Source: Clytia hemisphaerica (lineage: Eukaryota > Cnidaria > Hydrozoa > Leptothecata > Clytiidae). Taken from it: a DNA stretch of 64,000 nt. The translations under genes were made by a program, and so were the position numbers. A model generated the notes under the pieces. It saw only the letters and a program-made list of their open reading frames with translations, ran no database searches and had not been told where the DNA came from. Positions 1-46,900 of the stretch are shown one piece after another; positions within the stretch are counted from its first letter, which is position 1, and each line of letters begins with the position of its first letter. The stretch lies in assembly GCA_902728285.1 (NCBI GenBank), contig CACVBU010000050.1, forward strand, positions 3,558,919 to 3,622,918, in the 5' to 3' direction.

Positions 1-240
1 ATCATTTCGGTTGGTGAATCTGAGGATCTCAATGACACGGCTACGAACATATTGCTTCAGTGATTTGGTTTCATTGCTGATCCAGTAGAGTGTGATTTGA
101 CTGTCAGTCAGCTTTGTTGATGATTTGTGCCATTTTTTGAAGGATCTTCTAACAATTTCACTTGTGTGTGCATTGAGTAGGGCTGCAAGCAGTTCAGCAC
201 GTGGTTGAGAGGTTCCTTCTGGTACTAATTTGGAACGAGA
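1..240 (-). pseudogene. Continuation of BEL/Pao RNase H region in a shifted frame
   Basis: Upstream of the stop at 225 the minus strand stays open in another frame to the window edge. It carries an RNase H-like stretch with the PRAELLAA motif (about 181-205) and a downstream TDSQ-x-LYWI-like motif that holds a typical catalytic Asp. The frame that ends at 225 already holds the first RNase H motif (FADAS). A single small indel near position 240 therefore separates the two halves of RNase H. This is a degraded retroelement, not a separate gene. Confidence 0.75.
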
Positions 241-4513: not shown

Positions 4514-4616
4514 GGAACGTCAGTGATACATGCGGTGAACAGAAGTCGGTTTGAATATGATATCTGTTTGAATGTGGTCGAATTGAAGTTTGGCAAGATA
4601 ATATGTGAGTTGACAA

Positions 4617-13305: not shown

Positions 13306-14224
13306 ACTAAAATCTAAATTCCACCCGTTTGAAATTGTTTTGGCTACTTACGTTTCCAAAGTTTAAATTTTAAGTCAAAAGCTATTAAAATTATCATCCC
13401 AACGGTGAACGAGAACTACATATGCGTGCCATGTTGCTAATAAGACATAACAAAAAGTCACAAAGTTTCAGAGCACCCAGAAAAAATCTGCTCTGAATTA
13501 TTAAAGTCTGTCTCAAAAGTGTGTGGACAGTTAAGTTTACTCAGCACCCATTTATGCTAATGTTAAAAAGTTATATTATACTATACACCGTTGGAAAAAT
13601 ATTTCCAAGGGAAATAATCTAAAGGATAAAATATTTTTGAAAAGTCGAAAAATGAAGAAGAAAAAAGAAGATGTAACAAATGAATATTATTTCTGCTGTT
13701 TTAAAAATCATGAAATTTGTTAAAATATTTGAACCTTGCTGATTTCAAATTTGTGTTCATATACAGGGCTTTAAAGAAGGTCAAAAACGGCCAAAAATGA
13801 CCAAAAATGACCAAAAACGGCCAACATCACAGTGCTGTAACTTTTTATCTAAAGGCAAGGTTCAAATATTCTAAAAAACAGTAAAAAAATCTTCATTTGT
13901 TTCATTTTCACTTTTCAAAAAATGTTTTATCATTTAGATTATTAAATATAATATGGTATAAATATTAAGGGTCGGTGGTTATAGCAGATTTTACAGAAAT
14001 AGAAATTGAGCTACAAGTCCAGCCCTGAGCCGGAATCGGGGTTGCTTTATATAAAGAATGTGTCTCTAAAGGCCAGGAGAAGAAAAAACATTTGAGGAGG
14101 AAGAAGATATGCCCTTCCTTGTCAAAAACATCAATAAATAATAATAATAAAATATCAAGTCCCCGAGCGCAATTTCATGAAGATTTTCAGATGCAATAGA
14201 CGTAAACTTCCTCGTGTTAAAAGG

Positions 14225-14232
14225 TATAAATA
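14225..14232 (+). promoter_or_regulatory. TATA box of family-A gene 1
   Basis: TATAAATA lies 65 bp before the ATG, within a block (ACTTCCTCGTGTTAAAAGG just upstream, AGTTGGCAAAAT just downstream) that recurs before all five cysteine-rich genes. The conservation between two very divergent families supports it as the functional core promoter. Confidence 0.75.
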
Positions 14233-14289
14233 GTTGGCAAAATCTTTCAAATTCATCATTTGACAAGAAGAAAACAAAGCAACATCAGA

Positions 14290-15408
14290 ATGAAGATTTT
14301 GAAAGTTCTATTACTTCTATCTTTCTTGTCTGCCACAGTTTACTGTAAGTATTCGTCATTAAATCACCATAAGTCTAAACTCGAAACCAGTCCCTTGTTT
14401 GCTTTTTTATGATTTTGAAAGCGAACACGTTTGTATAGCTCTGGGAATGACTGGAGATCACCAAAAGACACGAAGATACAAAGCTTTAATGTACGTAAAA
14501 TTATAGATTCTTTTGCTGTTGAAATTTCATAACAAATAATTTTCTCTCTGCACACAGGTGAAGAAAGCGAAGATTTTGTTGAAAACGAAAGTGAAAGTGA
14601 AGATTTTGTTGAAGAAGAACCTTCAGATGACGAGCCTTCGGAAGACGAGCCTTTAGATGACGAGCCTTCAAAAGATGAAAATGAAGATGTCCAGGATGAA
14701 GAAAACCAAAGCGAAGAAAATGACGAGGATGAACAAAATGGTATTTACTCATCTTGCTGTCAACGTGCTTTTTTTGTCAAACCTACAGATTAATTTATAC
14801 AACCAATTTTCCAGAGTTCCAGTTTTCCATTTCCCTTTGAGAAGTAGCCCTTTACAATGAATACTAAAATAACAAAACAATGCTCGCGTTTCCCTGTTTT
14901 TGCGAAAATTAATTCTGTTGAAAATCTTTGGAAATTGAAAGAAATTAGATTGAATAGAGGCTTATCCTGAACTCTAATCACAACAAAAATCAAGATTTGT
15001 AATTCCAGGCTAAAATAAAACCACTTTAAAGTCGCATAATATCCCAACATTCCAAATTATTTTTCAGATCCCAGTTACAGTCCAAGAACGCACAAGAAAT
15101 ACGTCGGAGGGCCACGAAGAGAACACTGCAGATTAATCAATCCTGTTGTGAAAAGCTGCTGGAAGAAAAGAACATGCGTACGACATATGTATGGTAGATG
15201 TGCCCGAACCAAGTTGGAAAAATATTGCAGAGTGCAATACGATTTTGAATGCAACGTCTGTAGACCTTTTGTCATCCGAACATGTACCAGATATGGATGT
15301 AAAGATGGAGCAAGACAAAAAGAATGCACCGGCCGTAAAGTTGTCCGAAAGAAGTTTATCCGAAAATTCAAAGGAGTATCATACATCAACCATAACTTGT
15401 ACGGTTGA
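14290..15408 (+). CDS. Secreted acidic/basic cysteine-rich protein, family A copy 1
   Basis: Three exons, 14290-14344, 14558-14740 and 15068-15408, give 192 residues. Both introns are GT-AG and phase 1. Exon 1 encodes a signal peptide ([18 protein letters not shown]). Exon 2 encodes about 61 residues, of which 34 are Asp or Glu, with repeated DEPS units. Exon 3 encodes about 113 residues with ten cysteines and roughly 30 Lys/Arg against 7 acidic residues. The cysteine spacing is C-x9-C-x5-C-x7-C-x8-C-x7-C-x2-C-x7-C-x4-C-x8-C. The ATG follows a TATA box by 65 bp, and AATAAA lies at 15495. The product is presumably secreted and disulfide-bonded. The acidic part may be a charge-neutralising propiece. 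I recognise no named family; a defence, venom or matrix peptide are all possible. Confidence 0.85.
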
Positions 15409-15967
15409 ACAAAAGACGAACAAAGACCCTTTGATCTAGACCGATTTTTCTTGTAAAATATTTGCATGCATTTTTTTTTTACTATTGTGGGATAAATAAA
15501 ATGTTGAAAGCTAATAATATGTTTCTATCAATTAAATTATCGTGTTGTCATCAAAAACCTAAGCTTTTGCTCATCCTCTAGCGAAAATATTATTATTACC
15601 GTTGGAAAAAGCAAACGTTTATAGAAAACAGGTCAACTCTAAGGAAGCTGTTCAAGTTATCTTATTATAAAGATTTAAAAAACTTCAATTTGAAAAATAG
15701 AAAACAGTTGATAAAGTGTCTTATTTATGGTTTCGAGTTAAGGAATTGTCTAGCAAATAAAGTAAATTTTACAGGCTACAAAAAAAACAATGAATCTGGG
15801 AATTTTGGTTCAGAATCCATGATTACATGTTCACGTTAGTTAGGATAGTTCACATCCATTTTAGAGGACTCCGAGTGTATTTTCGAGCTCCAAGAACCAC
15901 AAACGTACAGCCAAAGAATACTTCGCTCTGATCGTTCATCGCGAAAACTCGAGAAAAAGTTCAATAA

Positions 15968-16053
15968 AAAGGTTCACTTCCTGCATCCAACAAACTTATT
16001 GCCGACTCTCTGATCAAATGTAAAAATCTTCGTAATTCTTACTTTTGGAAAAG
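15968..16053 (-). pseudogene. Broken duplicate of the Nup107 terminal exon
   Basis: On the minus strand this copies the functional last exon at 19970-20098, including the splice acceptor (ATTTCAG). One base change turns the fifth codon into a stop (CAA AAG TAA), and the 3' part with the natural stop is missing. It was carried along when the family-A gene was tandemly duplicated. It has no exons behind it and cannot function. Confidence 0.8.
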
Positions 16054-16536
16054 CTGAAATAAGAAGAAAATATACCCTAAAGTAATTATGAGTCAAAATC
16101 GTTTAAAACCACACTAAGGAAAGTCTCATTACTGTTGCTTTGCATTCATCAATAATTATGCTCAATCACGAAGGTCCAAAAAAGAAATATGGACCAACTT
16201 CAACTTTTCAAATTTGCATTGTCCAGGGGGGAAATTTGCTCTGTCCGGGGGATAAAACTAAAATCTAAATTCCACCCGTTTGAACTTGTTTTGGGTACTT
16301 ACGTTTCAAAAGTTTTAATTTTAAGTCAAAAGCTATTAAAATTATCGTCCCAACGGTGAACGAGAACTACGTATGCATGCCAATAAGACATAACAAAAAG
16401 TCACGAAGTTTCAGAGCACCCAGAAAAAATCTTCTCTGAATTATTAAAGTCTGTCTCAAAAGTGTGTGGACAGTTAAGTTTTCTGAAATTTTCTCAGCAC
16501 CCATTTATGCTAATGATAAAAAGTTATACTACACTA

Positions 16537-16787
16537 CAGGGTGTCCCTAATTAAAGTATCGAGTCGTAACACAACTATGAGTAGAAAGTTTTATGTGCGT
16601 GTTCACAAAATTGTATTTTAAGCTCTCCCTCTTTTTTCTTTGTCATTACGACTAATTTATACGTTGTAACTACCTTTTGTAATAAGCCTGTGTGATGGAG
16701 AACGTTCTTATATTTTAGCGATAACACACACAAACTTTTCTACTCAATCGCGTGCTCAAACTCGATACTTTAATTAGGGACACCCTG
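16537..16787. mobile_element. Tc1/mariner-type MITE, 251 bp
   Basis: Both ends begin CAGGGTGTCCCTAATTAAAG as inverted copies, flanked by TA on each side (16535-16536 and 16788-16789). The matching place in unit 1 (about 13578) has uninterrupted sequence, so this is a clean insertion after the duplication. It has no coding capacity. Confidence 0.92.
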
Positions 16788-17030
16788 TATTGTATACACC
16801 GTTGGAAAGATATTTCCAAGGGAAATAATCTAAAGGATAAAAGATTTTTGAAAAGTCGAAAAATGAAGAAGAAAAAAGAATATGTAACAAATGAAGATTA
16901 TTTCTACTGTTGTGAAATTTGTTAGAATATTTGAACCTTGCTGATTTCAAATCTGTGTTCATATACAGGGCTTTAAAGAAGGTCAAAAACGGCCAAAAAT
17001 GACCAAAAATGACCTATAACAGCCAACATC

Positions 17031-17550
17031 CAAGAGCAGCCACCGACTAAGAAGTATGAAATATCTGTTCTTGAGGTCCCTTTCTCCTGTAAAAAACTAT
17101 CTCTTCTGTATCCTGGGCTCTCCTGGATTTTATCATCTGTTCTGGGAAAAATGGGACTCCTGGAAAATGAATATCTGTTCTCTAGAAATTTTATGCTCCT
17201 GGAAAAATATAACAGCTATTATCTAAGAAAGCTAAAATACTTCTAGAAAATGAGACCTTTTGAGAAAATTATGAAGCTTCCTGGAAAAAAAAATCTGTTA
17301 TCTGGTAGTGTTTTTCATAATTTTTCATAATTTAGCTCCTGGATTTTCTGAACAGATTGTCCGCTGGAAAATTGGAAATGTTTTTTCCTTAAAATGTGCT
17401 CCTGGATTTTAAGAACAGATGTCTTTAAGGTGACCCCTGGATTTTACCTGGTTGTTTTGAGGAAAGTCTCTCCTAGACTTATCCATAAAATTTACTCTCC
17501 TGGAAAAAAAGGACAGATATTTAAAAAAAATCTGCCGGCGGATGTTCTTG
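17031..17550. mobile_element. 520-bp inserted element of unknown class with 6-bp target duplication
   Basis: AACATC flanks both ends (17025-17030 and 17551-17556), and unit 1 has a single AACATC at the empty site near 13827. The ends are imperfect inverted repeats (CAAGAGCAGCCACCG and CAAGAACATCCGCCGG). The interior is an irregular array of (CT)CCTGGAAAA and ATCTGTT words in both orientations. No transposase is seen, and I do not recognise the family. Confidence 0.8.
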
Positions 17551-17990
17551 AACATCACAGTGCTATAACTTTTTATCTAAGAAAAATAAGAAAAATCTGA
17601 ATACAAATTTGAAATCGGCAAGGTTCAAATATTCTAAAAAACAGTAAAAAATTTTTCATTTGTTTCATTTTCACTTTTCAAAAGTGTTTAATCATTTAGA
17701 TTATTAAATATAATATGGTATAAATATTAAGGGTTGGTGGTTATAGCAGATTTTACAGAAATAGAAATTGAGCTGCAACTCCAGCCCTGAGCCCGAATCG
17801 GGGTTGCTTTATATAAAGAATGTGTCTCAAAAGGCCAGGAGAAGAAAAAAACATTTGAAGAAGGAAGAAGATAATGTTCTTCCTTGTCAAAAACTATCAA
17901 CAAATAGTAATAATAAAATATCAAGTCCCCGAGCGCAATTTCATGAAGATTTTCAGATACAATAGACGTAAACTTCCTCGTGTTAAAAGG

Positions 17991-17998
17991 TATAAATA
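17991..17998 (+). promoter_or_regulatory. TATA box of family-A gene 2
   Basis: TATAAATA lies 65 bp before the ATG, in the same conserved block as copy 1 (14225). Confidence 0.75.
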
Positions 17999-18055
17999 GT
18001 TGGCAAAATCTTTCAAATTCATCATTTGACCAGAAGAAAACAAAGCAACATCAGA

Positions 18056-19217
18056 ATGAAGATTTTGAAAGTTCTATTACTTCTATCTTTCTTGGCTGCC
18101 ACAGTTTACTGTAAGTATTCATCATTAAATGCATGCAAAATCACCAAAAGTCTATACTCGAACCAAGTCCCTTTTGCTTTTTTATGATTCTGAAAGCGAA
18201 CACTTGATATCACGTCCATCAGTTGGATCGAATCGTAAAAGTGGTTTGGAATGACTGGAGATTACAAAAGACACGAAAATACAAAGCTTTAATGTACGCA
18301 AAATTATAGATTTTTTTATGCTGTTGAAATTTGATAACATATATTTATCTCTCTGCACAAAGGTGAAGAAAGCGAAGATTTTGTTGAAAACGAAAGTGAA
18401 GATTTTGTTGAAGATGAACCTTCAGATGATGAGCCTTCGGAAGACGAGCCTTCAGATGATGAGCCTTCAAAAGATGAAAATGAAGATGTTCAGGATGAAG
18501 AAAGCCAAGGCGAAGAAAATGACGAGAATGAACAAAATGGTATTTACTCATCTTCCTCTTGTCAACGTGCTTTTTTTGTCAAACCTACAGCTTAGTTTAT
18601 ACAACCCATCTACCAGAGTTCCAGTTTTCCATTTCCCCTTTTCCTTTGAGAAGTAGCCCTTTACAATGAATACTAAAATAACAAAACAATGGTCGCGTTT
18701 CCCTGTTTTTGCGAAAATTAATTCTCTTGAAAATCTTTGGAAATCGAAAGAAATTAGATTGAATAGAGGCTTATCCTGAACTCTAATCACAACAAAAATT
18801 AAGATTTGTAATTCCAGGCTAAAATAAAACCACTTTAAAGTCGCATAATATCCCAACATTCCAAATTATTTTTCAGATCCCAGTTACAGTCCAAGAACGC
18901 ACAAGAAATACGTCGGAGGGCCACGAAGAGAACACTGCAGATTAATCAATCCTGTTGTGAAAAGCTGCTGGAAGAAAAGAACATGCGTACGACATATGTA
19001 TGGTAGATGTGCCCGAACCAAGTTGGAAAAATATTGCAGAGTGCAATACGATTTTGAATGCAACGTCTGTAGACCTTTTGTCATCCGAACATGTACCAGA
19101 TATGGATGTAAAGATGGAGCAAGACAAAAAGAATGCACCGGCCGTAAAGTCGTCCGAAAGAAGTTTATCCGAAAATTCAAAGGAGTATCATACATCAACC
19201 ATAACTTGTACGGTTGA
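18056..19217 (+). CDS. Secreted acidic/basic cysteine-rich protein, family A copy 2
   Basis: Exons 18056-18110, 18363-18539 and 18877-19217 give 190 residues, with the same phases as copy 1. The signal peptide differs by one residue. Exon 2 is two codons shorter and carries several substitutions in its acidic repeats. Exon 3 appears to encode the same protein as copy 1, with silent change only (for example GTT to GTC at about 19150). This contrast suggests that the cysteine-rich part is constrained while the acidic part drifts, though a very recent duplication or gene conversion would look similar. AATAAA is at 19312. The gene ends about 750 bp from the 3' end of Nup107 on the opposite strand. 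Confidence 0.85.
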
Positions 19218-19969
19218 ACAAAAGACGAACAAAGACCCTTTGATCTAGACCGATTTTTCTTGTTAAATATTTAAATATTTGCATGCATTTTTTTTTTACT
19301 ATTGTGGGATAAATAAAATGTTTAAAGCCAACAATATGTTTCTATCAATTACGTCAACGTGTTGTCATCAAAAAACTAACCTAAGCTTCTACTCATCTTT
19401 TAGCGAAAAGAGTTTCTTATAGGAAGTTTATCTATAAAAGTCTGCGATTCAGACTATAGCTAACCGTCCTTTAGCTAACTAAAGTTAAGAAATCTAAGAA
19501 GTCTTATTGTTATTAGTAACGTTGGAAAAAGCAAACGTTTATAGAAAACAGATCAACTCTAAGGAAGCTGTTCAAGTTATCTTATTAAAAAGATTTTAAA
19601 AACTTCAATTTGAAAAATAGAAAATAGTTGATAAAGTTCAATGTCTTATTTATGGTATCGAGTTAAGGAATGGTCTAGCAAATAAAGTAAATTTTACAGG
19701 CTACAAACAAAACAATGAATCTGGGAATTTTGGTTCAGAATCCATGATTACATGTTCACGTTAGTTAGGATAATTCATATCCATTTGAGAGGACTCCGAG
19801 TGTATATTCGAGCTCCAAGAACCACAAACATCCAGTCAAGGAATACTTTGCTCTGATCGTTCATCACGAAAACTCGAGAAAAAGTTCAATTGAAAAGATT
19901 TGATTTCAATTTGAACAATTTGAAATTCGAAAAGTTCAATCGACTCCTGATGGAATACAATCTTTCCCA

Positions 19970-22900
19970 TTACGATCGATCCATTTTATAGACATGAAGT
20001 GACTCATAACCAAAAGGTTCACTTCCTGCATCCAACAAACTGATTGCTGACTCTCTGATCAAATGTAAAAATCTTCGTAATTCTTCCTTTTGGAAAAGCT
20101 GAAATAAGAAGAAATTATACCCTAGAGTAATTATGAGTCAAAATCGTTTAAAACCACACTAAGGAAAGTCTCATTACTGTTGCTTCGCATTCATCAATAA
20201 TTATGCTCAATCAAAAAGCAGTGGTCAAAGCAGCTTTTTTCTGTGAGACGGAAAATTTGTCGATAGAGATATTTTGGTACTATACAGTAACACCCGCAGG
20301 CCCCACTATGGTTGGGGCGGAGGGCCAGAAAATGTTCAGATTTTTTACCCCCTAGATTGGCTATAAAGGCACTAAAATTTGTTAATTATAATAACACAGA
20401 ATGTTCTTAAAATACCTATCATGCAGCGAAAATATATATCTTTCTAAAATAGGTTGAAAAATAAAAATATATGAACGTCATACTATGTATATACAAGGCC
20501 ATCAGCCATCATAAACACAGTTTTAATACGAGATTTCTTTCTGATGGAATTATTCCAGAGATTAAAATCACTATTTCTTGCTAAATAACCATTTCTAACT
20601 GAGGCGGAAAACTTTGACAACAATTTCTGTGAGACGGAAATCCGTGTGAAACGGAAGAACTTTGATCACTGAAAAAGGTCCAAAAAAGAAATATGGACCA
20701 ACTTCAACTTTTCAAATTTGTCTTGTCCATGGGGAAAATTTGCTCTGTCTGGGGGGTAATTTGGGTTGTCCGGGGGGTCAACTGATTCTTATCCGGGGGG
20801 GGGGGGGGTAAATCACTGAAAATTGTTATATCCTCCACCCCCATATTCAATTTTTTTCTGGAAAAGCCCAATGTAGTAAGAAGATTAACGATTTCTGTTC
20901 GTTACCGATTTTCCTGTAAAAGGGTTGAATAGGCAATAAAGAAATGCTTACCTCGTAAAGACGATATTTTGACGATTGGATAATTTCAGCCAATTGGAAA
21001 CACTAGGTAGGAAGAGAGAGATGATAACATAAAAAATATGGGAATATCAATCCACACTGAGTTTCAGTCCGTTCTTTTACCCCCACTGGCTGATAAAATC
21101 CTACCGGGTCTGTGAGAAGGGATGTGCGTTGGGTTTACAAGGCTATGAGACTCACAATTAACCTTGAAGAGGTGCAAAACTAACATTAAATTTAGGTAGA
21201 AAACCTCAGAAAAGAAAAGGGAACAGCAAATTAAGCATATCATAATAACGAGACATGTAATTAGTACGAACGGGAAAAATTCATGTTAAGCCACCTTTAA
21301 TTTCAACCAGCCGTGTTGTGAAAACGATAAACAAGTGATTCGTAAATTAAGTTATAAACGTATTAATTTAAAGGCCATTTATTTAATACCTGTCGATGTT
21401 GTTTGTTGGAGGATAGGACTTTATGAAGAAGAAGTGTAAGATAAGGAATGCATAACTGTCGCAATAAAGAAATCTGCTCTTGACGATCGCCGTCAGTATT
21501 CGTTTCCTGTACAGAAATAGTTGTAAAACAATGTATATCTCTCGGCCATAAAAGTCAACCATACTGAGGTCGTCAGATGTTCAGTTCTGCCTCTAAAAAA
21601 ATCTGAAGATTGGATAAGGGCCACTACCCCCACATTGAGAGTATCTAGAAAATCAACCAGAGTCAACAAAACTTTTCACATGAGTAGAAATGCTACATAA
21701 ACTTGTGATCACATTACATTGAAAATGAAAAGCCACGTGGAGAAGGAACAGTACATACCTTTCTTTGGTCGACAAGCCATCCACCAGGAAATAAGAAGAC
21801 GTTATATACCGCTTCTGACGTGGCCTACAAAAAAATGGAAACAAAAGTAATTAGAACGGTATTGACTAATCTATGTTGTAGGGATACAAAGTTTTTGAAC
21901 GTAAATTTGGTGCCTGTAAAGAATTAAGGAAGTCTGCGCTCGCTGTAGGGGATGATTTGAAGGCTCCTCTTTCGAAAGCTATCTAGGGGAGGGTGTCACT
22001 CTTTCTTAATGGATTTGCTCCATAATCCTTAATTTCTGAGCATCAAGTAGAGAGTACCATACGATGTCTTTGCGAAAAAAGCAAAGCCCCGTGTTTAAAC
22101 TGGACTGGAAGGTGAAAAAAATTATACTGAGTATCGAAGGGTTTCAAGCGTAAGGTAATAAAGAAAAAAGATTAGCTTACATTGATGTGAATTTCCAGTG
22201 ATTTTTGCCACCTTTCACATTCAACCTAAAAGTGAAGTGAATGCAAAAACAATACTGTTATAACATAGCCGCTGTTGACAAATACAATTATCGCTCTAAT
22301 TCGATTTTCAAGGGGAATCGGATTTTCATCGAATAAGGGAGCTTATGGACTAGAGCGTGGTTCATGAAAGTTCCTTGTTAACGTTAACTTTCAAAATTAT
22401 TGAATAATGGAGCGTTTTGTATAGTAGAACGTCGGATTAGATCATGTATCGCACAATTTGTAACTCCTTTTAATCGTATTATCAGTTAGATAGTTGACAT
22501 GCTTACAGTATATTCTTTCACAGCTTCATCGTATGCGATTTTCTCTTTGAAAGTTCGTTTGCCAACACCGCTGTCCTTTGGTTTCACCTGTAGAAAAACA
22601 AAAAGAATGTTCAGGACTCAAAAAGCAGACTCTTTTTTTCTCCCTTACCTTCTATCAAAAAGTTTTTTAAAAGAAAATCTTTAAAAAATTGCATTGTCTA
22701 GGATGTGTTTTAATCCAATATACCTTTTTCAAAAATTAAAACGACTAGTAGGGCTTCCGATATGCCTTTTACCATAGTGCGTATAAAAAACCCGGTCTGG
22801 AAGCCTTTTGTTTCTTTCCATTGTTTCTTTCCTTTGTTTCTTACTTGAATTTGCGTTAAAGTTTAGTTTGCTCACTTTTTGATCATGTGATTTTGTTATG

Positions 22901-25900: not shown

Positions 25901-28900
25901 TAATATATGATAATATATGAATCATGGACAAAAATATGTATTTGCCAAATTGTTTTCAAGACAGAACTAAGAACAATTGATTTTCAATCATTCTTTTATA
26001 GAATAAGAATCGTATAATCCTTCGGCAGCTATCTTTCTTCCGTTAGACCTTTTTTATGTATACCAGGCGACCCAGAAAAATGTATAAGGGTTTGGAGAAA
26101 TAATTTGAATATTTACTAAATTCTTCAAGAGCTTATAACTTGAGAACCACTAAACCAAATTTAAAAAGTCATACACCAAATTTCAAGTTTGCCTTTCCTC
26201 TTTACAACGGAAAAAGAATTTAGTAAAAATTCAAATTATTTCGGACACAGTTACCCTTCAAACCCTTTTTTCTGGGTCAACCGGTAGTGATTTAGTGGAT
26301 TGGGACACGCAGGGCATACAGCCAGTTTATTTTGAATAACTGGTAGTTCGAATACCTGAAAACCTCTGCACGTACCGAATGTATAAAAGTTCACAAACTT
26401 TAAAGAAATATTGTGAGATATGAACTGTTGTAGAATCTGCTTGAATATTGTAGATAAATGTAAGGATTTCTTTCTGCGAAAAGATTGTGCTTTATCACAG
26501 AAAGTTTCTTTTTCACATAAACTTCGAATAAGTGATAGGAATTTATTTAGCTTAAGGTGAATAAGAAACCACTTCATATGACTGAAATTTCGTATACTTA
26601 ATTGAAGAGTTATTCGAATGATCGAGTATTTGAAAAAAAGTTTACAAGCTTAACGCCTGCAAAGAAGCTAAGCCGTTTGTAGAAAAACAAGCTAGATGCA
26701 GAATGGACCTACCTAATGATGAAAATTAGATAGCAATAAGGAGAAACATAAAAACAATCAATCAGAAAATATAGCGGCTAGTGAAATTGAATTGAATTTC
26801 ATCATTGATAGTTGATTGGAGGAGAGGGAAGGGAGTAGGGAAAAAAGAAATAGAAAGTTCCGGTTGCAAAAATCAGTTTTATTGACAATTGAAACATGCT
26901 TGATGGTGGCATTGTTATCAATAATGTTTTGTGTGAAAAAACAAAGAAAAACAAAAAGCCCAATTAGAAAATGTCAAAAAACCGGTTTTTCCGGCATATT
27001 TCCGGCATTTTCGGCCGGAAAAGAATGTTTTTCAAAAATCGGGCTCCGTCACATTTTAGGTATTGTCATTTTGCATCAGTGTACAAAATTTCATAAAAAA
27101 ATATAAAGTACAGCTCGAGAAATTCAAGAAATACTGTCTTTCCGGCAAAAATAGGTTGTTCCGGCGATTTTAAAATAGTTCCGGCTTCAAAAATCAATTT
27201 TGTTGAAAATTGAAACATGCTTGATGGTGGGCATTGCTATTAATAATGTTTTTGAATGAAAAAACAACCAATTATAAGGAAAAAGTCCAATGTAAATCCA
27301 CGAAAACGGCGATTTCCGGCATTTTCGGACGGAAAAAATTTTTTTCTCTAAAATCGGACTCGGCCATGTTTTGGGCATTGTTAATACGCATCTTTGAGCA
27401 CAAAATCAGAAAAAAATTAAAAAAAATAGAAAGTTCCGGTTGCAAAATTGCAAAAGTTTTATTGACGATTGAATCATGCTTGATGGTTGCATTGTCATCA
27501 ATAATAATATTTTTGCGTGAAAAAAACAAAGAAATATCAGGAAAAGGTCCAATGACTATGTTTTGGGCATTGCTATTATTACGCATCTTTGTGCAAAAAA
27601 TCAGAAAAAACTAATGATGAAATCTCGAGAAATGCCAAAAAAACGGTTTTTTCCGGTATATTTCCGGCATTTTCGACCGGAAAAAATGTTTTTCGAAAAT
27701 CGGTCTCCGTCACATTTTGGACATTGCCATTTTGCATCATTGTGCCAAAAATTAGAAAAAACTAATGAGCCGATCCTGAGAAAAGCTGGTAACAGACGGA
27801 CGAACGAACGGACAGACGGACGGACGGACATCGGTTAATTTATAGGACCTCCAAGGTAGGTCCAAAAACTAATGAGCATATCTCGAGAAAAGCTGGTAAC
27901 AGACGAACGGACGGACGGACGAACGAACGAACGAAAGAACGAACGAACGAACGAACGAACGAACGAACGAACGAACGAACGAACGAACGAACGAACGAAC
28001 GAACGAACGAACGAACGAACGAACGAACGAACGAACGAACGAACGAACGAACGAACGAACGAACGAACGAACGAACGAACGAACGAACGAACAGCGGTTA
28101 ATTTATAGGACCTCCAGGTAGGTCAAAAACTTGACTGAAAGGCGAATGAATAATATTCAATAATTTTCTAATTTTTCAACAATGTAGGTTTAGGATGGTT
28201 TAGAATGTAAATATTTGTAAAAATCTATATAGATTCTTCATATTTTATACGTGCATACTTCTTTATCTCGAGAAAACTGTTTTTCGTGAAAGTTGGACGC
28301 ATTTGCGCACACCCTTTTAACAATTCGAAAGTTGAAAAATGGGTTCGACAAAACCTACCCTCATTCTCCATTGTTTGTAGACAATATCAATGGAATCGGT
28401 CGGGATTTTACTGAACACACTTCGTGCTGCATCATGATTCTTCAGACCTGTAGTAAGAAAAAGTACCACAAATTGTAATACAGACGGCAACTGTATATGG
28501 ATTTTGGATGGATTAGATGGGAAAACTGAAGGTTTATTCCGGCAAGAATTTAATAAAAAAACTGTAAGCAATAAAATATCAGCGCTCTTGAATAAAGAAA
28601 ATAAGCATATTGTATATGCAAAAAACATTTCCATACGAAAAGATTCAACTGGAAGCACTTACCAAGGAAATTTCTGATGATAGCATTAGCCTGTTTGATA
28701 GCTTCGATACGTTGTGAAGGATTGAAGACCAGCCAATCAATCGCACCGATGATTCGCTTCTCGTCCTACACAAAAAGGATACAAAGGGGAGAGGGAAGAA
28801 GTAGTGGGAGTTTTAGGATTTTTGAAGATGTGCTTGACGAATGAATAATATTTTATAGTTTCAGTTAGCCTCATACAAACTTTCTCCGTATTATTGAAAA

Positions 28901-31900: not shown

Positions 31901-34900
31901 AGGAAGACACGCTGTGTATGCTGCTACCAAATCATGTTGTTGGTTTTCTATCAAGTTCTATGAAAGAAAATTAATGAAGTCAAAACATTTACAAAGGACT
32001 GTCTTTCGAAGTTAAGAAGAACAGGGAAGTAGTTTAGACTCATCAATTCTGTCGATCGATATGAAACTTTAAATGGAGTCAAAAGGTGGTTAGGGTGACA
32101 GTCCATTCTTTAGGGACTCCTAAATAATTACGCATGTAAAAACTTGACTGAAATCAGAAAACAAATCACATATTTAAAAAATTCGAGGCGTTGAAGCTTT
32201 CCTCTGAGATTATCGAAGTATTCAACAGCAAAACAAAAAAACAGTGAAAAGCTCAACGATTTTTTGCAAATTCTTTTGATTAGCTTCCATTGATAAATGT
32301 TTTTTGACTGTTTGTTTGGGAAAGCTTATTCCAGGTCGAGTAACTGAACTTTTAGCATATACATTTTTTCAAAACTCACAAAAGGAGGAAGTGCCTGGAG
32401 GCATACTAAAAAAGATATAAACACCAAAAAGGCTCAAAGGTTCGAAACAATTAGCATCAAATACAAATAACTATGAGGGGAATTGAAAAATTATTGGAAT
32501 ATTGGAATACGAGTTCTATCGATGAAAGAAATATAATTTTCAAATGCATTGTTAATCTAAGAGGAAGTGCCCTGATGCCATGAAAAAGAACAAAAAACTG
32601 TTAAAATACCAGATAATAGTTTTGAAAGGATTATAGCACCAAATACAAGCAACTATGAAGGGAATTAGAAAATTACTGGAAAATATTGGAATACTACATG
32701 AATGAAAAGAATATATTATAATAATACGACTGATTCCCTAATCACAACCAAAAAAGAAAAACTTCCTCGTCTTAAAAGGTATAAATAGTTGGCAGAATTT
32801 CCAGAAAATCATCATCTTTCAAATTCATCATTTGACAAGAAGAAAACAAAGCAACATCAGAATGAAGATTTGGAAAGTTTTATTACTTCTATCTTTCTTG
32901 GCTGCCACAGTTTACTGTAAGTACTTTGAATTTGTTACTGAAACTGATTGTATAAGAAATAATTTCTCATTACTGAAAAGCGGGCGGGTAAAAGGACGTT
33001 TTGAAATAGCGGGGAAATCAATTGAAAATGATTGATCTTGTTTTGATTATACTGAAGAGCATGATGATTTTAAAAATAAGCCTCTTACTCCTTCTTAAAA
33101 CACAAGGTGAAGAGAGCCAAGAAGTGGAAGAAATTCAAGATGAGCCAATGGAAGTTCAAGATGAACCAATGACAGCTCAAGAAGATGAAGTTGAGGAAGT
33201 TGAGGAAGATGAAATCTATGGAGAAGAAGAAGACATTGAAGAAATTGAAGAAAATGGTGAGAAAAAAATCTTGTTCAGTTTAAAATGTCATCCTCTTTTC
33301 TTCAGAAATAATGTATAACACAAAGAATGAAATCTGTTGTATTTTCTACGTCTATTTCATACGATTTTTAGTCGGTTTGAGTATCCATAACCGAAAGGGC
33401 ATAATTAGCAAGTTGTCATTAAAGTTAGTCAATAGCTGTTACTTTTAACCATCTTTTCACTAATTTAGACGCTGCCAAAAAACCACCTAAGAAGGCGGTC
33501 AAAACCAAAGTTTACGTGGAAAAAAACAAGAATGCTGGAGAATGCAAACAAGTTCATGTCAAACGTACCAAACACTGTTTCGTCAAGAAAGTTTGCGTAC
33601 ACAAAGTCAACTACAAATGTAAGAAATTGCGAATCCAAAAATTCTGCAAATTTACTTTCAAGAAAGAATGCAAAGTCTGCTCCCGATTCTATTTCAAAAC
33701 ATGCACTAAGAAGCAAGGGTCGCCTACATTATCATGCAAAAAGGGACCATTACAACCCCGACAATGTGCAAGGAAAATCGTTGGTCATGGATCTGTTTTG
33801 AAAGTAGTCGACACAAAACACCAAGCTGTATAATTACAACAATGACATCGAAAGGAGGTTTTTCCATTTTGTAAATTATTATTTCTAGGTTTCTAGGTGC
33901 AGGGTCCAACTATTTACTATGATTATCTTGGTACACTTATGATTTTAAATACATCGCGTGCTATCAGGGAGAAAGTTATTATTGTGTCCAATTGTGTACC
34001 TTTTGCTTTGCTTCGATTAAGCTTAGCGAATTTTAAGAAAAATAAGGAGTCTTTTGAGAGACAGACATTCGAATCGAAAAAGTTCTTTATATCCCTTTAA
34101 GTGCCACGGTCTTTTTTTCTTAGTTCTTTTAAAGAAGATCGCTAGTTTAAACTTTAAAGGCTTACATCTCTAGATCTAGAAGGAGTTAGAAGCTCGTTCA
34201 TAGCTCGTTGGATAGCTTAGAGTCGTTGCGTGGACCTGACTAAGTAGCGGTCTGGCTTAATTTTCTCAGCGGTGCAAACTATAAAATTGGGTCCCCCGGT
34301 GTTTTTGTCCTTTTTGGCGCCCTCCATCATCAAGTGAAAATATTCAACTGGTTGAAAGTAAGGCCCGGAATCTTTGAGTTAAGAAACATCTTTTATTTAT
34401 ACGAAAATGGTGGTAATGGTAACTTGATATCTTTTGCCTTGTCATTTAAAAGTCAAAGATTTCTGGGCGAGTAGGCGCAACCATGGCTTGCGCCGACATT
34501 TCACCTTTGAATCTGTCTAAAATCATCTAAATGTAAATGAATCCCCTCAAATTGGACTCAAATCGGATTAATCAAATTGAAATCGAAATTTTGTTACTAG
34601 TAAGGTGGTTTGATGAATATTTTTGTTTTAGAAAAATTTCTCAGAAAAATTACATGATAAGCTATGCGCCGCTGGTCTTCATTCACGCTCTATTAAAACT
34701 CAATGGTAGGGACCGCAATGATTTTTTCAAATTGTTTTTAGCGCATTGAAACCATGCTCATTGGAAAGAGCATCAAAAAAGAAAAAAAATGAGGGGTCAT
34801 TCATCAAAATCGGCCAAGCCGTTCTCGAGATATGAAATTTTCTATCTCCTGAAAATGACCCTTTTTATGGAACGATTTTCGAGGATTTTTGTAAAAATCA

Positions 34901-37900: not shown

Positions 37901-40900
37901 TGGGTAAGTTGTTTAATGTAATTACTGGAGGATCTAGTAGGTTTACCCTCTGTAAAGTAGACTTCAACCGTCTGTTTAGAAGGATCAGGGTTGAAGGACA
38001 TCTTCTATTGATGAGCCAACTCATTTATCCTCTGCAAGTCACTGTTCAGTTCTTGAGAACAGTGAATCTGATCAAGAATTTGGCTTTTTGGTTTAAAATC
38101 TCGCTGGGAAGAATGTTCTTTGACGGTTTGTTTGGGAAAGCTTATTCCAGGTCGAATAACTGAACTTTTGGCATATACATTTTTTCAAAACTCACAAAAG
38201 GAGGAAGTGTCTGGAGGCATACTAAAAAAGATATAAACACCAAAAAGTCTCAAAGGTTCGAAACAATTAGCATCAAATACAAATAACTATGAGGGGAATT
38301 GAAAAATTATTGGAATATTGGAATACGAGTTCTATCGATGAAAGAAATATAATTTTCAAATGCATTGTTAATCTAGGAGGAAGTGCCCTGATGCCATGAA
38401 AAAGAACAAAAAACTGTTAAAATACCAGATAATAGTTTTGAAAGGATTATAGCACCAAATACAAGCAACTATGAAGGGAATTAGAAAATTACTGGAAAAT
38501 ATTGGAATACTACATGAATGAAAAGAATATTATAATAATACGACTGATTCCCTAATCACAACCAAAAAAGAAAAACTTCCTCGTCTTAAAAGGTATAAAT
38601 AGTTGGCAGAATTTCCAGAAAATCATCATCTTTCAAATTCATCATTTGACAAGAATAAAACAAAGCAACATCAGAATGAAGATTTGGAAAGTTTTATTAC
38701 TTCTTTCTTTCTTGGCTGTCACAGTTTACTGTAAGTACTTTGAATTTGTTACTGAAACTGATTGTATAAGAAATAATTTCTCATTACTGAAAAGCGGGCG
38801 GGTAAAAGGACGTTTTGAAATAGCGTGGGAATCAAGTCTGCAAAATCGAATCATGAAAGCAAAATGATTGATCTTGTTTTGATTTTACTGAAGAGCATGA
38901 TGATTTTAAAAATAATCCTGTTACTCCTTCTTAAAACACAAGGTGAAGAGAGCCAAGAAGTGGAAGAAATTCAAGATGAGCCGATGGAAGTTCAAGATGA
39001 ACCAATGACAGCTCAAGAAGATGAAGTTGAGGAAGTTGAAGAAGATGAAATCTATGGAGAAGAAGAAGACATTGAAGAAATTGAAGAAAATGGTGAGAAA
39101 AAATTCTTGTTCAGTTTAAAATTTCATCCTTTTTTCTTCAAAAATAATGTATAAATACACAAAGAATGAAATCTGTTTTACTTTCGACGTCTATTTCATA
39201 CGATTTTTAGTCGATTTGAGTATCCAAAACCGAAAGGGCATAATTAGCATAAAAAGTTGTCAGTAAAATTAGTCAATATAGCTGTTCCTTAACCATCTTT
39301 TCACTAATTTAGACGCTGCCAAAAAACCACCTAAACCTAAGAAGGCGGTCAAAACCAAAGTTTACGTGGAAAAAAACAAGAATGCTGGAGAATGCAAACA
39401 AGTTCATGTCAAACGTACCAAACACTGTTTCGTCAAGAAAGTTTGCGTCCACAAAGTCAACTACAAATGTAAGAAATTGCGAATCCAAAAATTCTGCAAA
39501 TTTACTTTCAAGAAAAAATGCAAAGTCTGCTCCCGATTCTATTTCAAAACATGCACTAAGAAGCAAGGGTCGCCTACATTATCATGCAAAAAGGGACCAT
39601 TACAACCCCGACAATGTGCAAGGAAAATCGTTGGTCATGGATCTGTTTTGAAAGTAGTCGACACAAAACACCAAGCTGTATAATTACAACAATGACATCG
39701 AAAGGAGGTTTTTCCATTTTGTAAATTATTATTTCTAGGTTACTAGGTGCAGGGTTCAACTATTTACTATGATTATCTTTGTACAATCACTTATGATTTT
39801 AAATACATCGCGTGCTATCAGGGAGAAAGTTATCATTGTGTCCTATTGTGTACCTTTTGCTTTGCTTCGATTAAGCTTAGCGAATTTTAAGAAAAATAAG
39901 AAGACCTTTTGAGAGACAGACATTCTAATCGAAAAAGTTCTTTATATCCCTTTAAGTGCCACGGTCTTTTTTTCTAAGTTTTTTAAGAAGATCGCTAGTT
40001 TAAACTTTAAAGGCTTATATCTCTGGATCTAGAAGGAGTTAGAAGCTCGTTCATAGCTCATTGGATAGCTTAGAGTCGCTGCGCGGACCTGACTGAATGA
40101 TGGAAAGGTGCCCAGTGGTAAAGTTTCAAATCAGTTCACTAAAGGACAGAATAAAACAAGTGATATGGACCTACCTGGTTATGAATTTAACACATATATA
40201 ATTGATATCTACGTGAGCATGACGTGAGCATGACCGTTAGACAGTCATTCAGAACACAAATAGTGACGGTCTATTAAAATTAGTTGTTTGTTTCTTATAG
40301 GAAAACGTTCAGAAACCAAAATTTCATGCTCTTGAAATATTCTTTCATATTCAAGACTTCGTGAGCAAAAAAAACATCTATCTCATCAAAAAATTGAGTA
40401 GTTTGGCTAAGAACATTGATGTATGCTTATTAATAGTGATTCTTATAGATAAAGATGCGTTTTTTGAGATGAAAAATTCTTTTTTTACAGATATCTGCTT
40501 GAGCCATCTTTTACCAATGATGGTACCCTACTTTCATGCAAAAAAGCAGAAAAAACAATGATCCAATATTTCATTAAGTCCAAAAAACCCTTTTTTTAGC
40601 TGTTTTTTTGGCCCAAATTTGCCCAAAAACATTTTTTTTCGAAAATCGGGCACCGTCACATTCGAGGGTTTATAGTTATGAATCTTTGTGCAAAAAATCA
40701 TAAAGAATGAAAGAGCCAATCTCGAGAAAAGCTAATACCTAATGTGCTTATAAAAAATATCGAATTTGGCCAGTTTTTCTATAAAAACACGCCAAGCAAC
40801 CAAAATTTGATGTCTAGACACACATATTCTTCAAAAGTAAGCCCTCATGAGCAAAGAAAATATCTATCTCATAAAAGAATTGAGTAATTTGACTAGGAAC

Positions 40901-43900
40901 ATTGATGTATGCTTATCAATCCTCTCGTCTTGGCAACTCTTTAAATGATCCAAACATAAGAAGTAAGAAATACTGGTCTATTCTGAAGCAGTTTCTGAAC
41001 GAACGTAAAACCCCGAAAATTCCACCTATTCGAAATGAAAGAAAAGTCCTTGTAAGCGATGTTTCTGAGAAGGCCGATATTTTCAACTCTTTTTTCTCAA
41101 ACCAATGCTCACTTATCGATACTGGCGGTGCTTTGCCACCTGAACAATTTCTTACTAACTCTAGACTCAATAATCTTGTATTTGAAGAAGAAAAAATCGA
41201 GTCTATTATTAATTCTTTGAATGTTAACAAGGCCCATGGGTGGGATACTATTTCTACTCGTATGGTCAGAATCTGTGGTAAGTCTCCAGTAAAACCTTTG
41301 CTTAGTATATTCAATCTTTCTATCAACTCTGGCATCTTCCCATCACAGTGGAAGAAAGGTAACGTGGTTCCTGTCTATAAAAAGGGAGACAGGAGCATAG
41401 CCAAAAACTACAGACCAGTGTCTCTTCTTCCTGTGTTTGGAAAAATATATGAAAAGTGTATTTATGATACACTTTACAGGTATTTTGAAATTATATATTA
41501 GGTATTTTGGTGTAGACATTTCAAAGGCATTCGATCGGGTGTGGCACGATGGCTTAATCTTTAAACTCAAATCTTATGGGGTAACTGGACCGTTGCTTTC
41601 CTTAATTCGCAGCTTTCTTGACGATAAGCATCAGAGAGTTGTGTTGAATGGGAAAACATCTGAGTGGAAGCAAATCAATGCAGGGTTACCTCAAGGCTAA
41701 ATTCTTGGTCCATTGTTCTTCTTAATTTATATTAATGATCTTCCAAAAAACCTTGAGTCAAAACCCAAGATTTTTGCTGACGATACCTCTTTATTCTCTC
41801 TTGATCAACTCTTGAGCCTTGATGTACTTAACAGAGATCTCTCCAGGATAACTGATTGGGCTCATCAATGGAAGATGTCTTTTAACCCTGACCCATCTAA
41901 GCAAGCTGTTGAAGTCTATTTTACCTGTAGACTCACTCCTCCTAATGCTCCAGTAATATCTTTTAATAATTCTAATATCGCGACCAGTGAGTACCAGAAA
42001 CATCTTGGTCTAATCTTAGATTCAAAACTTTCTTTTGATCGCCATCTAGATGAGAAGATACAAAAGGCCAATAAAGGAATTGGTCTTATTAACCGACTTC
42101 GCAAGCATGTGCCTAGGAGATCTCTATTAACCATTTATAAATCTTTCATTAGGCCTCATCTTGATTATGGTGATATCGTATATTATGACCGTCCAGGAAA
42201 TGCTACCTTTGTACCTAACGAACTGAGCGTTTCCGTAACACTTTTTTTCCTTACTGCATATCTCAGTGGAATGTTCTGGGAGGTAATATACAAGATCTAC
42301 CTTCAATTAAAACTTTCAAAAAAGCAATCTGTAAATTTTTGAGACCCAAGCAATCTCATGTTTTTGATGTTCCTGACATTGAAGGAGTGATCTTTCTTAA
42401 TCGACTTCGGGTTTCAGCCATCTCAACGAGCATAAATTTAGACATGGATCCGCGACACTTTAGACCCTTTCTGTGGTTGCCAAACTAACTCTGTTGAAAA
42501 CACTCAGCACTTTATCCTGCACTGCTCTATATATTCCAATGCAAGACAATCTTTGTTCGACAAACTTCAGACCCTAAGCATTGTTTTTCATCCACTTAGT
42601 CCTCCTTTTTTCTGTCGGCTTTCATTATATGGGGATGAAAGTTTGACTTCAAATCTAAATAAATCTATTCTTTGTTCTGTTGTTGAATTTCTTAACGAAA
42701 CTGGAAGGTTTAGCGGTGCTTTATTTTAGGCTTTTACCTAACAATGGGCCATTCCATTTTATATCCATACAGGGGGGTGGACAAACATTTCCAAAGGGTA
42801 ATCCGATAACAATTTCCAGGAGGTATTTTTTCATTTTTCCAAGGGGGTAAAAAGTTATTCTCAAATATCCAGGGGATAAAGGACTGATTTTAGTTCGTCC
42901 ACCCTCACTTTAAGGTATGAAAAGAACTTTTCCATAAGGGTATTTTTGGAAATTTTACCATTTTCCAGGGGGTATCCACACATTTTCAATAATTTTTTTT
43001 TGACTTGAAAAGGTTCGTCCACCCCCTTGTATGGTTTTTTAATGGAACAGCCCAATTGTAGCTTCCTTCTCCAAGATTTTTTAATTTTTTATTTACTTAT
43101 TTATTTATTTTTCTTTCTTTCTTTTACATAGTCTAGTACCTCTGGCGATATAACGTTAGTTCCTAGCGGGTGAGGGACTATATTTTATGTTTAAGTAATG
43201 TTTTGCAATATATGTTCGTAGTGTCTAAAAGTCCAAAATATTTGAAACGATTAGCATCAAATACAAATAACTATGAGGGGAATTGAAAAATTATTGGAAT
43301 ATTGGAATACGAGTTCTATCGATGAAAGAAATATAATTTTCAAATGCATTGTTAATCTAGGAGGAAGTGCCCTGATGCCATGAAAAAGAACAAAAAACTG
43401 TTTAAATACCAGATAATATTTTGAAAGGATAATAGCACCGAATACAAATAACTAAGAAGGGAATTAGAAAATTACTGGAAAATATTGGAATAAATGAAAA
43501 GAATATTATAATAATACGACTGATTCCCTAATCACAACCAAAAAAGAAAAACTTCCTCGTCTTAAAAGGTATAAATAGTTGGCAGAATTTCCAGAAAATC
43601 ATCAACTTTCAAATTCATCATTTGACAAGAAGAAAACAAAGCAACATCAGAATGAAGATTTGGAAAGTTTTATTACTTCTATCTTTCTTGGCTGCCACAG
43701 TTTACTGTAAGTACTTTGAATTTGTTACTGAAACTGATTGTATAAGAAATAATTTCTCATTACTGAAAAGCGGGCGGGTAAAAGGACGTTTTGAAATAGC
43801 CTGGGAATCAAGTCTGCGAAATCATCATGAAAGAAAAATGATTGATCTTGTTTTGATTTTACTGAAGAGCATGATGATTTAAAAAATAATCCTGTTACTC

Positions 43901-46900
43901 CTTCTTAAAACACAAGGTGAAGAGAGCCAAGAAGTGGAAGAAATTCAAGATGAGCCAATGGAAATTCAAGCTGAACCAATGACAGCTCTAGAAGATGAAG
44001 TTGAGGAAGATGAAATCGAAGGAATTCAAGACTATGAAGAAGAAGAAGACATTGACGAAACTGAAGAAAATGGTGAGAATAAAATATTGTTCAGTTTAAA
44101 ATTTCATCCTTTTTTCTTCAGAAATAATGTATAAATACACAAAGAATGAAATCTGTTGTACTTTCGACGTCTATTTCATACGATTTTTAGTCGATTTGAG
44201 TATCCATAACCGAAAGGGCATAATTAGCATAAAGTTGTCAGTAAAATTAGTCAATAGCTGATATTTAACCATCTTTTCACTAATTTAGACGCTGCCAAAA
44301 AACCACCTAAACCTAAGAAGGCGGTCAAAACCAAAGTTTACGTGGAAAAAAACAAGAATGCTGGAGAATGCAAACAAGTTCATGTCAAACGTACCAAACA
44401 CTGTTTCGTCAAGAAAGTTTGCGTCCACAAAGTCAACTACAAATGTAAGAAATTGCGAATCCAAAAATTCTGCAAATTTACTTTCAAGAAAGAATGCAAA
44501 GTCTGCTCCCGATTCTATTTCAAAACATGCACTAAGAAGCAAGGGTCGCCTACGTTATCATGCAAAAAGGGACCATTACAACCCCGACAATGTGCAAGGA
44601 AAATCGTTGGTCATGGATCTGTTTTGAAAGTCGTCGACACAAAACACCAAGCTGTATAATTACAACAATTACAACAGGTTTTTCCATTTTGTAAATTATT
44701 ATTTCTAGGTTACTAGGTGCAGGGTCCAACTATTTACTATGATTATCTTTGTACAACCACTTCTGATTTTAAATACATCGCGTGCTATCAGGGAGAAAGT
44801 TATTATTGTGTCCTATTGTGTACCTTTTGCTTTGCTTCGATTAAGCTTAGCGAATTTTAAGAAAAATAAGAAGACCTTTTGAGATACAGACATTCCAATC
44901 GAAAAAGTTCTTTAAATCCCTTTAAGTGCCACGGTCTTTTTTTCTAAGTTTTTTAAGAAGATCGCTAGTTTAAACTTTAGAGGCTTATATCTCTAGATCT
45001 AGAAGGAGTTAGAAGCTCGTTCATAGCTCGTTGGATAGCTTAGAGTCGCTGCGCGGACCTGACTGAATGATGGAAAGGTGCCCAGGGGTAAAGTTTCAAA
45101 TCAATTCACTAAAGGACAGAATAAAATGAAACAGGGCCATATTTGGAGGTTCTTGGATCACTCGTTGACCAAAAATGGTCAAATGGTTGCATTTTGACTT
45201 TTTGGCTTAAAATCTGGCTGGAAAGACTCACTTTTGAATTTTTTTTTTGCTTGACCATGAAGCACAATCCAATGTCTACGGGTTAGACCAAAAATGACGA
45301 TTTCTAACTCAAACTGGACTCAAAGTGGACTTAAAAAATATACTTGACATGGGCACGGAGAGGGTTATATTAAATTCTATTTACAATAAGTATGCACTTG
45401 TTCTTATTTTGCGTTTATTTGTTTTTCAACTCTTAAATGGCAGTATTTTCGATATATCTTAAGTCTGTCTATTTTCTACTAGCTTTAAAAATATTTTAAA
45501 ATATTTTAACCTTGCTGATTCAAAATCTGTTTTCAAATTTTTTATATCTTTCTTAAACCATAGTCATTATAAAATCTCTTGTCTGTCAATGTATTGTTTT
45601 AGCTTTTTTGTCAAATTTTTCTTTGTTATAAATAAAGGCAAGCTGCGATTTGCATACTTTTTGATCAAGTTACCAAATTATCCCCTTAGGATTGGTCTAA
45701 TTTCTAATCACATGATCAAAAAAATGCAAAACAAATCGATATGTGGACGAAAGCTCTAACCTGTTAACAAAAGAAGGAAACAAAAGCTTTCCAGAGCGGA
45801 GTTTTTTATATTGATTATGCCTAAACAAAGGCAACAGCACATCACTTTGAAGTAGGGCTGTAGCACAAAGGCTGAATTAAATTCGGCAGACTTATTAAAA
45901 TACGATAAAAAGCAAACTTTCATAGAAATGCTCAGTTTAGCCACTGCATTCAATCTATCGTTCGAGTAACAATTTTAATATTTCGAAGCGTCTTACCTCG
46001 ACAAATTTCTTGAGAACTGCAACACAAATCTCCTCCTAAAACAAATTGAAAATAATCGTATCAATCGATGAGTTATTCCATCACAAACTGCGAGTTTATG
46101 CACCATTTTTAATCAAGTGACATCACGTGAACCTTGAAATTTTCAAATCGTCACAGTGTCGAAATTCTTCAACAGTGAAAAGCAAGGTTTCTGCTGCGGT
46201 CTACTTTTTAGATGGTGCATTACTTTGCTTCACTTGCCATGGCCTTGGAAAGAGTAGATCTATCTAGTGTTTTTAAGAATATCTGAGCATTTAACATCAT
46301 TTGACCTTGGTAAACTCGATCCCAGTCTACTTAGCGAGTTGGGGTGATAAGTTTTTAGCAATTTAGCTGACTTTTTCTAAAACTAAAGCTTTTTGTTCCT
46401 CAAATTGACCAATAGCAAAAATAGCGCCTTTTGTCAAGAAAATTGTTGCATGTAATATGTATTCTTTTCTCTCGGGAAATTGAGGAAAAAATATATTTTT
46501 AAAGAATTCTTTTACATTATAATATATATTTTTTCGTAGGGTTTGAAAACCTCGTAGACAGGTACCCTGATGAAAAAGTCATTTTCAAGGAATCATTGGG
46601 AAAACTACAAAAACCAATTTCCGAAACTGTTTCCAATCAAAAAAGGAATTAATGACATCAAAACAGTTTGATAGACATAGTAGTTTAAAATTTAAACTGA
46701 ATCTTTTTAAAAAAATAACTTTTTGACAATGGGAGACTTTTGAAAAAAGATATTTGAAATCATAGAGTCCTTTTAGAGAGTCTTTACCTTATTTTTCTTT
46801 AAAGAAATAGATAGGCGCCAGGGAGTCTCTCTTGATATGGAAGTCAGCGAATACTATTTCTTAGTTTGGTCTAGTCAAGAAAGCTTTTAAAACCTAAATT

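Follow-up and report, generated by a model that had tools for sequence, protein, structure and literature searches.

What do five neighbouring genes for small secreted proteins in the hydrozoan jellyfish Clytia hemisphaerica encode, and how do they combine a nearly constant 5′ end with a fast-changing mature exon? The genes lie in a 64,000-nucleotide stretch (contig CACVBU010000050.1, here C38, positions 3558919–3622918; the window) and fall into two families, A (A1 and A2) and B (B1, B2 and B3). In all five, a 19-residue hydrophobic leader is followed by an acidic middle part encoded by exon 2 and a basic end encoded by exon 3 (signal peptides were assigned by eye); the ten framework cysteines all lie in exon 3, and the leader ends with one extra cysteine. 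These precursors are members of a large family of orphan secreted proteins in this model jellyfish, for which we offer a concrete functional hypothesis.

Direct reading and a script both recovered the five genes that a sequence-only reading had placed here, with the three exons, leader and phase-1 introns that it described; all ten introns are GT–AG (Table 1). Database proteins cross both exon joins, P0004 in family A and P0001 in family B, a support that comes from database models. P0004 (NCBI, 192 amino acids) represents a family A copy on contig C735 and is neither A1 nor A2. The initial 35 residues of P0001 (UniRef A0A7M5UKB4) are translated 5′ untranslated region (UTR; compare 32759–32862 and its copies).

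The common cysteine framework proposed for A and B also stands. Both families have ten cysteines, and C2–C8 are spaced 5, 7, 8, 7, 2 and 7 in five of five genes; the remaining spacings are 9, 4 and 8 in A versus 10, 10 and 9 in B. The accompanying statement that the families have few identical residues besides cysteines was slightly overstated, as BLASTP finds 23 identities over 71 positions between A and B (E 4e-11, in a single comparison). The local score of the A/B cysteine core is 118, versus 48.5 ± 10.8 for shuffles in which cysteines were held fixed, and none of 1,000 shuffles reached 118. Given these identities and the shuffle test, A and B are homologues, and share more than a common cysteine pattern. 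Two database proteins, P0003 (eight cysteines) and P0006 (ten), bridge the two families.

Searches of the genome (417 Mb, 951 contigs) revealed a family far larger than could be seen from the window, with about twelve subfamilies, A and B among them (A, B, D1/D2, D3-like, D6, E, F, G, H, I, J and K). The promoter and exon 1 of B3 (43540–43720) matched 32 genomic places and the equivalent region of an H copy 33, and exon-3 queries matched 21 (P0006), 31 (H type) and 5 (K type). By our count over all queries, the exon-3 matches form 38 distinct places on seven contigs (C38, 5; C735, 4; C480, 6; C195, 7; C94, 11; C149, 3; C671, 2), all copy counts being lower bounds. Exon 3 is open over its full length in 34 of the 38; an in-frame TGA interrupts two copies on C735, and two on C94 are cut short. 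A TAA flagged at the D1 copy sits just upstream of its exon 3. On C281, a signal exon stands beside a gap of N, and C239 (43500–50100 and 54700–61500) has two acidic family exons preceded by signal-exon matches, with one readable leader; no ten-cysteine exon was found on C239, where only one five-cysteine basic stretch occurs, on one side.

From 32 signal exons (the earlier list minus that on C281 plus C195:894430), a script completed 25 gene models, the five window genes included. Signal exons outside these models number three on C480, one on C671 and one on C735, with exon 3 read by hand, and two on truncated C94 copies. The 25 models are automatic predictions, and that at C195:897624, in which exon 2 is short, looks mis-spliced. 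All 25 have an acidic middle (net charge −12 to −46) and a basic mature part (+23 to +41), the latter with ten cysteines in 22 models, nine in one and twelve in two. The C4–C8 spacing is 8, 7, 2 and 7 throughout, a constancy that was partly selected for because the exon-3 search pattern (x7–9, x6–8, x2, x6–8) favoured it; D3-like copies, outside the 25, have 6 at C4–C5. Two introns are present in 18 models. The seven that lack intron 1 all lie on C94 (711000–750600) and have the same signal exon; two more copies there are truncated in exon 3.

Family B is a 99% match to A0A7M5UKB4 and family A a 99% match to P0004, both from C. hemisphaerica. Searches of 5.8 billion proteins gave six proteins, of which P0001 and P0003–P0005 are labelled Clytia, P0002, from EukProt, bears a Clytia-style TCONS transcript number and the source of P0006 is a 697-base ENA contig. 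Because its best match in the Clytia genome is only 53%, P0006, which carries no species name, is probably from another hydrozoan; a scan of viral contigs found no relative of it. All species-named matches are from Clytia, and we infer that the family is restricted to hydrozoans. The database labels are ‘uncharacterized’ and, for P0003 and P0005, ‘Cnidarian restricted protein’.

The sequence-only reading recognized no named family and spoke of an undescribed family of disulfide-rich secreted proteins. Pfam, PDB and fold searches likewise gave no strong match to any named family. Two full precursors had no Pfam match above the cut-off, nor did ten exon-3 representatives, whose sole match at E ≤0.1 was that of one member to PF08008 (E 0.07); no profile of a Pfam disulfide family, whether defensin, ShK, WAP, three-finger or another, was matched above its cut-off. 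Searches of PDB sequences and with Foldseek found no convincing relative. The top structural matches (pore complexes, LptE and affimers) share only long β-hairpins and were set aside, as was a phage autotransporter β-domain protein, the best match in a viral library searched with the A model (E 0.011; template modelling score 0.33 by query). Scans for Rfam families (at the gathering threshold) and for tRNA genes gave no hits. The family is real and lacks a convincing Pfam, PDB or fold relative; ‘undescribed’ is unsafe, given the UniRef and NCBI entries and a possible identity with the PF1 proteins discussed below. Among the matches listed, no paper describes the framework in its title or abstract opening, and the available text of papers reports neither it nor the split of charge, the loss of cysteines in pairs or the conserved 5′ module.

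Which fold the basic domain adopts can be approached from predicted structures and from natural cysteine losses. AlphaFold, run on both families as the sequence-only reading had proposed, predicts all-β structures with very long strands and two hairpins for A (predicted local distance difference test (pLDDT) 88.6; predicted template modelling score (pTM) 0.54) and for B (pLDDT 82.3; pTM 0.50). In both models C2 lies exactly opposite C5 and C8 exactly opposite C9; C7–C10 is off register by 1 and 2 residues, and C6–C10 by 2 and 1. Cysteines have been lost in pairs: D1/D2 lack C3 and C4 (a single alignment gap), J lacks C7 and C10 (J1 at full length, J2 and J3 read as pieces only) and K (K1 and K2) lacks C2 and C5. 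Two cysteines have been added near C9 in I1 and I2. The predicted turns are the places of most variable spacing, C8–C9 (4–16) far ahead of C3–C4 (7–11). Together, models and losses suggest two disulfide-laddered hairpins, one with C1–C6, C2–C5 and C3–C4 and the other with C7–C10 and C8–C9, in a possibly new fold. In this map, C3–C4 rests on the paired loss in D1/D2 and not on the model register, and C1–C6 follows, against the model register, by elimination once the other four pairs are taken. The chance that three disjoint random pairs fall within the five of the map is 0.003 (5/45 × 4/28 × 3/15), a guide and not a test because the arithmetic was made after the losses had been seen.

Several observations count against this map. 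In the AlphaFold registers C1 pairs better with C7 (off by 1 and 0) than with C6 (off by 2 and 3), and C3–C4 is off by three residues in both models. The AlphaFold input comprised only seven sequences, one of five A models had a pLDDT of 44, and the pTM values are those given above. Single losses also occur, of C1 in E3 and of C3 in the interrupted copy J3, and the C1–C2 spacing (8–11) varies almost as much as that of C3–C4. The paired losses amount to a natural experiment that gives disulfide connectivity from sequence alone, and the resulting map is a hypothesis that mass spectrometry can check.

How such a precursor might work is suggested by analogy with Hydra, whose antimicrobial peptides are described, in the available text, as secreted, mostly of bipartite charge, with a complex cysteine pattern, in paralogous families and taxonomically restricted (PMC10945409; also treated in reviews, PMC12194522 and PMC4820302). 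We give about an even chance to the reading that the Clytia family consists of hydrozoan-restricted secreted precursors with a periculin-like antimicrobial or microbiome-shaping action. The signal peptide and strongly acidic pro-region would be joined to a strongly basic domain of two long β-hairpins with a five-disulfide ladder; the acidic part would mask the basic part while the precursor is stored in secretory vesicles. After release, the rigid cationic ribbon might bind negatively charged surfaces, most likely bacterial envelopes and the mucus or glycocalyx, where, as a periculin-type peptide, it would act against microbes or shape the microbiome. The charge split in all window genes and all genome-wide models counts in favour of this reading. 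The Clytia proteins have a signal peptide (by eye), an acidic part and a cationic cysteine-bearing part, and come from clustered paralogues of common exon structure, apart from the seven C94 models without intron 1. In periculins the acidic part precedes the cationic part. Periculins are reported to share the signal peptide, bipartite charge, cysteine bridges and taxonomic restriction, as well as clustered paralogues of similar exon structure (PMC10945409). They differ in being reported as Hydra-only, and the ten-cysteine double-hairpin framework is not among the features given for them in the available text of that report; the comparison is one of descriptions and not of sequences. None of the six proteins found among 5.8 billion is labelled Hydra, in searches that need shared five-residue words and used no periculin query.

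Other observations speak against masked defence peptides. No conserved dibasic or furin-type site was seen by eye at the acidic/basic junction, and release of the basic part is therefore unsupported by the sequence. β-amphipathicity was not significant in four sequences (z 0.7 to 1.2 at 170 degrees). The mature domain (about 98–153 residues) exceeds most antimicrobial peptides in length, and it could equally serve a structural or adhesive function.

An adhesive function would have a specific setting in Clytia. The PF1 proteins, reported in 2025, are short and secreted with conserved cysteines, are encoded by several homologous genes with ‘many’ in neurosecretory cells, and, according to the available text, resemble nothing found outside Clytia, match no known fold and have largely planula-restricted expression (PMC12225738). 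Our family matches PF1 in species, in its short secreted proteins with conserved cysteines, in its several to many homologous genes and in the lack of a fold match. PF1 is described in that text without sequence or framework (PMC12225738), so the likeness is one of descriptions and not of sequence identity; our judgement is that the two are the same with a slightly better than even chance, which makes the family a candidate identity for these unexplained proteins. If they are, the basic ribbon could bind acidic mucins in adhesive or mucus-crosslinking proteins at the planula aboral pole, for settlement. The PF1 authors name adhesion as well as antimicrobial action as possibilities (PMC12225738), and the sequence-level features shared with PF1 favour this alternative. 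Against it, family B transcript TCONS_00047653 falls near XLOC_0304xx and not near the marker xloc_042849, an interpolation from published TCONS/XLOC pairs that bears on this transcript only and not on other family members. We regard the adhesive alternative as rather unlikely, at appreciable odds below those of masked antimicrobial precursors.

The anatomy of the genes raises a further alternative: venom peptide families, too, have a conserved leader, a pro-region and a mature part that is divergent and rich in cysteine, and their genes lie in tandem arrays. Venom peptides of nematocytes or gland cells nevertheless seem improbable to us: no Pfam family was matched above the cut-off, the basic domain is large, and in exon 3 of the recent pair A1–A2 amino-acid change does not exceed silent change (non-synonymous divergence 0.000, synonymous divergence 0.014). 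Developmental ligands or antagonists are a very improbable alternative. ‘Cnidarian restricted protein’, the label of P0003 and P0005, is a term used in a Clytia Wnt3-knockdown study, whose authors proposed that the secreted members act in signalling (PMC4169000); the label may, however, be generic, and thirty-odd similar, fast-changing, highly charged copies are unlike a specific ligand.

A comparable layout occurs in anuran skin, where antimicrobial precursors combine a conserved signal, an acidic propeptide and a variable cationic mature part (PMC6245896). They belong to another phylum and show no evident sequence relation to the Clytia genes, whose mature part is, unlike theirs, a large disulfide domain and whose conservation reaches the 5′ UTR and, in A and B, the core promoter. 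Across 165 aligned columns the A1 module is 85–87% identical to those of the three B genes, with background similarity outside. Between A1 and B3, near-identity begins some 20 bases upstream of the TATA box and ends at the exon-1 donor: 65 of 66 aligned bases before the ATG agree, besides a 17-base segment absent from A1 and A2, and so do 52 of 55 in exon 1. Silent differences for this pair are 1 of 13 in exon 1 versus 51 of 67 in exon 3 (Fisher p 5e-6). A3, the A copy on C735, has the 17-base segment and an exon 1 identical to that of B3 (55/55) between A-type flanks. The G, H and I copies on C94 match over about 60 bases of 5′ UTR and exon 1, and identity declines through their TATA region.

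This likeness could reflect exchange between paralogues, selection, or both. That strong selection on promoter, 5′ UTR and leader acts alone, and paralogues have exchanged nothing, comes fairly close to being an even bet. Similarity ends at or just beyond exon 1 in A/B, G/H and G/I, where gene conversion need not stop, and F (C149) and the G, H and I copies (C94) are near-identical in exon 1 (1–2 of 11.3 silent sites differ) despite lying on different contigs, a likeness that purely local exchange does not fit. The exon-3 tree prefers B with D1/D2 (bootstrap 73) and does not reject A with B (approximately unbiased (AU) p 0.104), which is also compatible with selection alone; the module tree rejects other arrangements (AU p 0.0001) and does not place A3 within B. 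Incongruence between exon-1 and exon-3 trees was expected, and we do not claim it because A with B survives the exon-3 test.

Other evidence weighs against selection alone. Exon-1 silent sites are not simply frozen, as they change between most clusters (A1–E1, 7.0 of 12.8), while within clusters they are near-identical; only 0 of 11.3 differ for G2–H6 and 0 of 12.3 for A3–B3, on different contigs, and in these pairs and A1–B3 the exon-3 silent sites differ by 0.75–0.79. A rule that exon-1 likeness tracks the genomic cluster has exceptions in F and A3. The B-like module of A3 between A-type flanks tells in the same direction, as does the H/I pair, in which similarity overruns exon 1 by about 45 bases into exon 2. 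A nearly constant 5′ module beside a saturated mature exon is a clean place in which to separate gene conversion from selection in defence-peptide evolution. More tentatively still, and with more doubt than confidence, we propose a hydrozoan two-speed gene encoding a new five-rung disulfide-laddered double β-hairpin, with 5′ UTR and signal exon (and, in A and B, the core promoter) kept alike within arrays by paralogue exchange, a mature exon free to change except for its disulfides, cysteines mostly lost pairwise and a private antimicrobial or adhesive repertoire.

Table 1. Conserved 5′ modules and exons of the five window genes, in window coordinates
Feature	Position	Strand	Basis
A1 conserved 5′ module: core promoter with TATAAATAG at 14225, 5′ UTR, signal exon, donor	14203..14351	+	alignment
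A1 exon 1, signal peptide	14290..14344	+	script; same join spanned by family A protein P0004
A1 exon 2, acidic pro-region, net −33	14558..14740	+	script
A1 exon 3, basic ten-cysteine domain, net +23, through stop codon	15068..15408	+	script; AlphaFold model
A2 conserved 5′ module	17970..18117	+	alignment
A2 exon 1	18056..18110	+	script
A2 exon 2, acidic, net −31	18363..18539	+	script
A2 exon 3, net +23; protein identical to A1 exon 3	18877..19217	+	script; 340/341 bases shared with A1
B1 conserved 5′ module, TATAAATAG at 32780	32759..32923	+	alignment
B1 exon 1	32862..32916	+	script
B1 exon 2, acidic, net −27	33107..33256	+	script
B1 exon 3, basic ten-cysteine domain, net +30	33469..33833	+	script
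B2 conserved 5′ module, TATAAATAG at 38594	38573..38737	+	alignment
B2 exon 1	38676..38730	+	script
B2 exon 2, acidic, net −27	38943..39092	+	script
B2 exon 3, net +33	39313..39683	+	script
B3 conserved 5′ module, TATAAATAG at 43570	43549..43713	+	alignment; genome search
B3 exon 1	43652..43706	+	script
B3 exon 2, acidic, net −27	43917..44072	+	script
B3 exon 3, net +31	44289..44659	+	script; AlphaFold model

Elsewhere in the window, a simple repeat at 27800–28120 (ERTN/SFVR repeats) gives several open frames, on both strands, and is no gene. Frames resembling a long interspersed nuclear element reverse transcriptase were recognized by eye at 40893–42339 (+), where two pieces had no Pfam match at E 0.001. 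A BEL/Pao-type retrotransposon frame lies at 228–3716 (−; Peptidase_A17, E 1.2e-20), and the frame adjoining it (3602–4519, −) has no Pfam match above the cut-off. Downstream of the B array, a single open frame at 47371–48531 (+) encodes a rhodopsin-type G-protein-coupled receptor (7tm_1, E 3.8e-18), and two neighbouring fibrinogen-related frames follow at 53287–53619 and 54703–55590 (−; Fibrinogen_C, E 1.5e-11 and 6.6e-54). Fibrinogen-related proteins are often linked to innate immunity.

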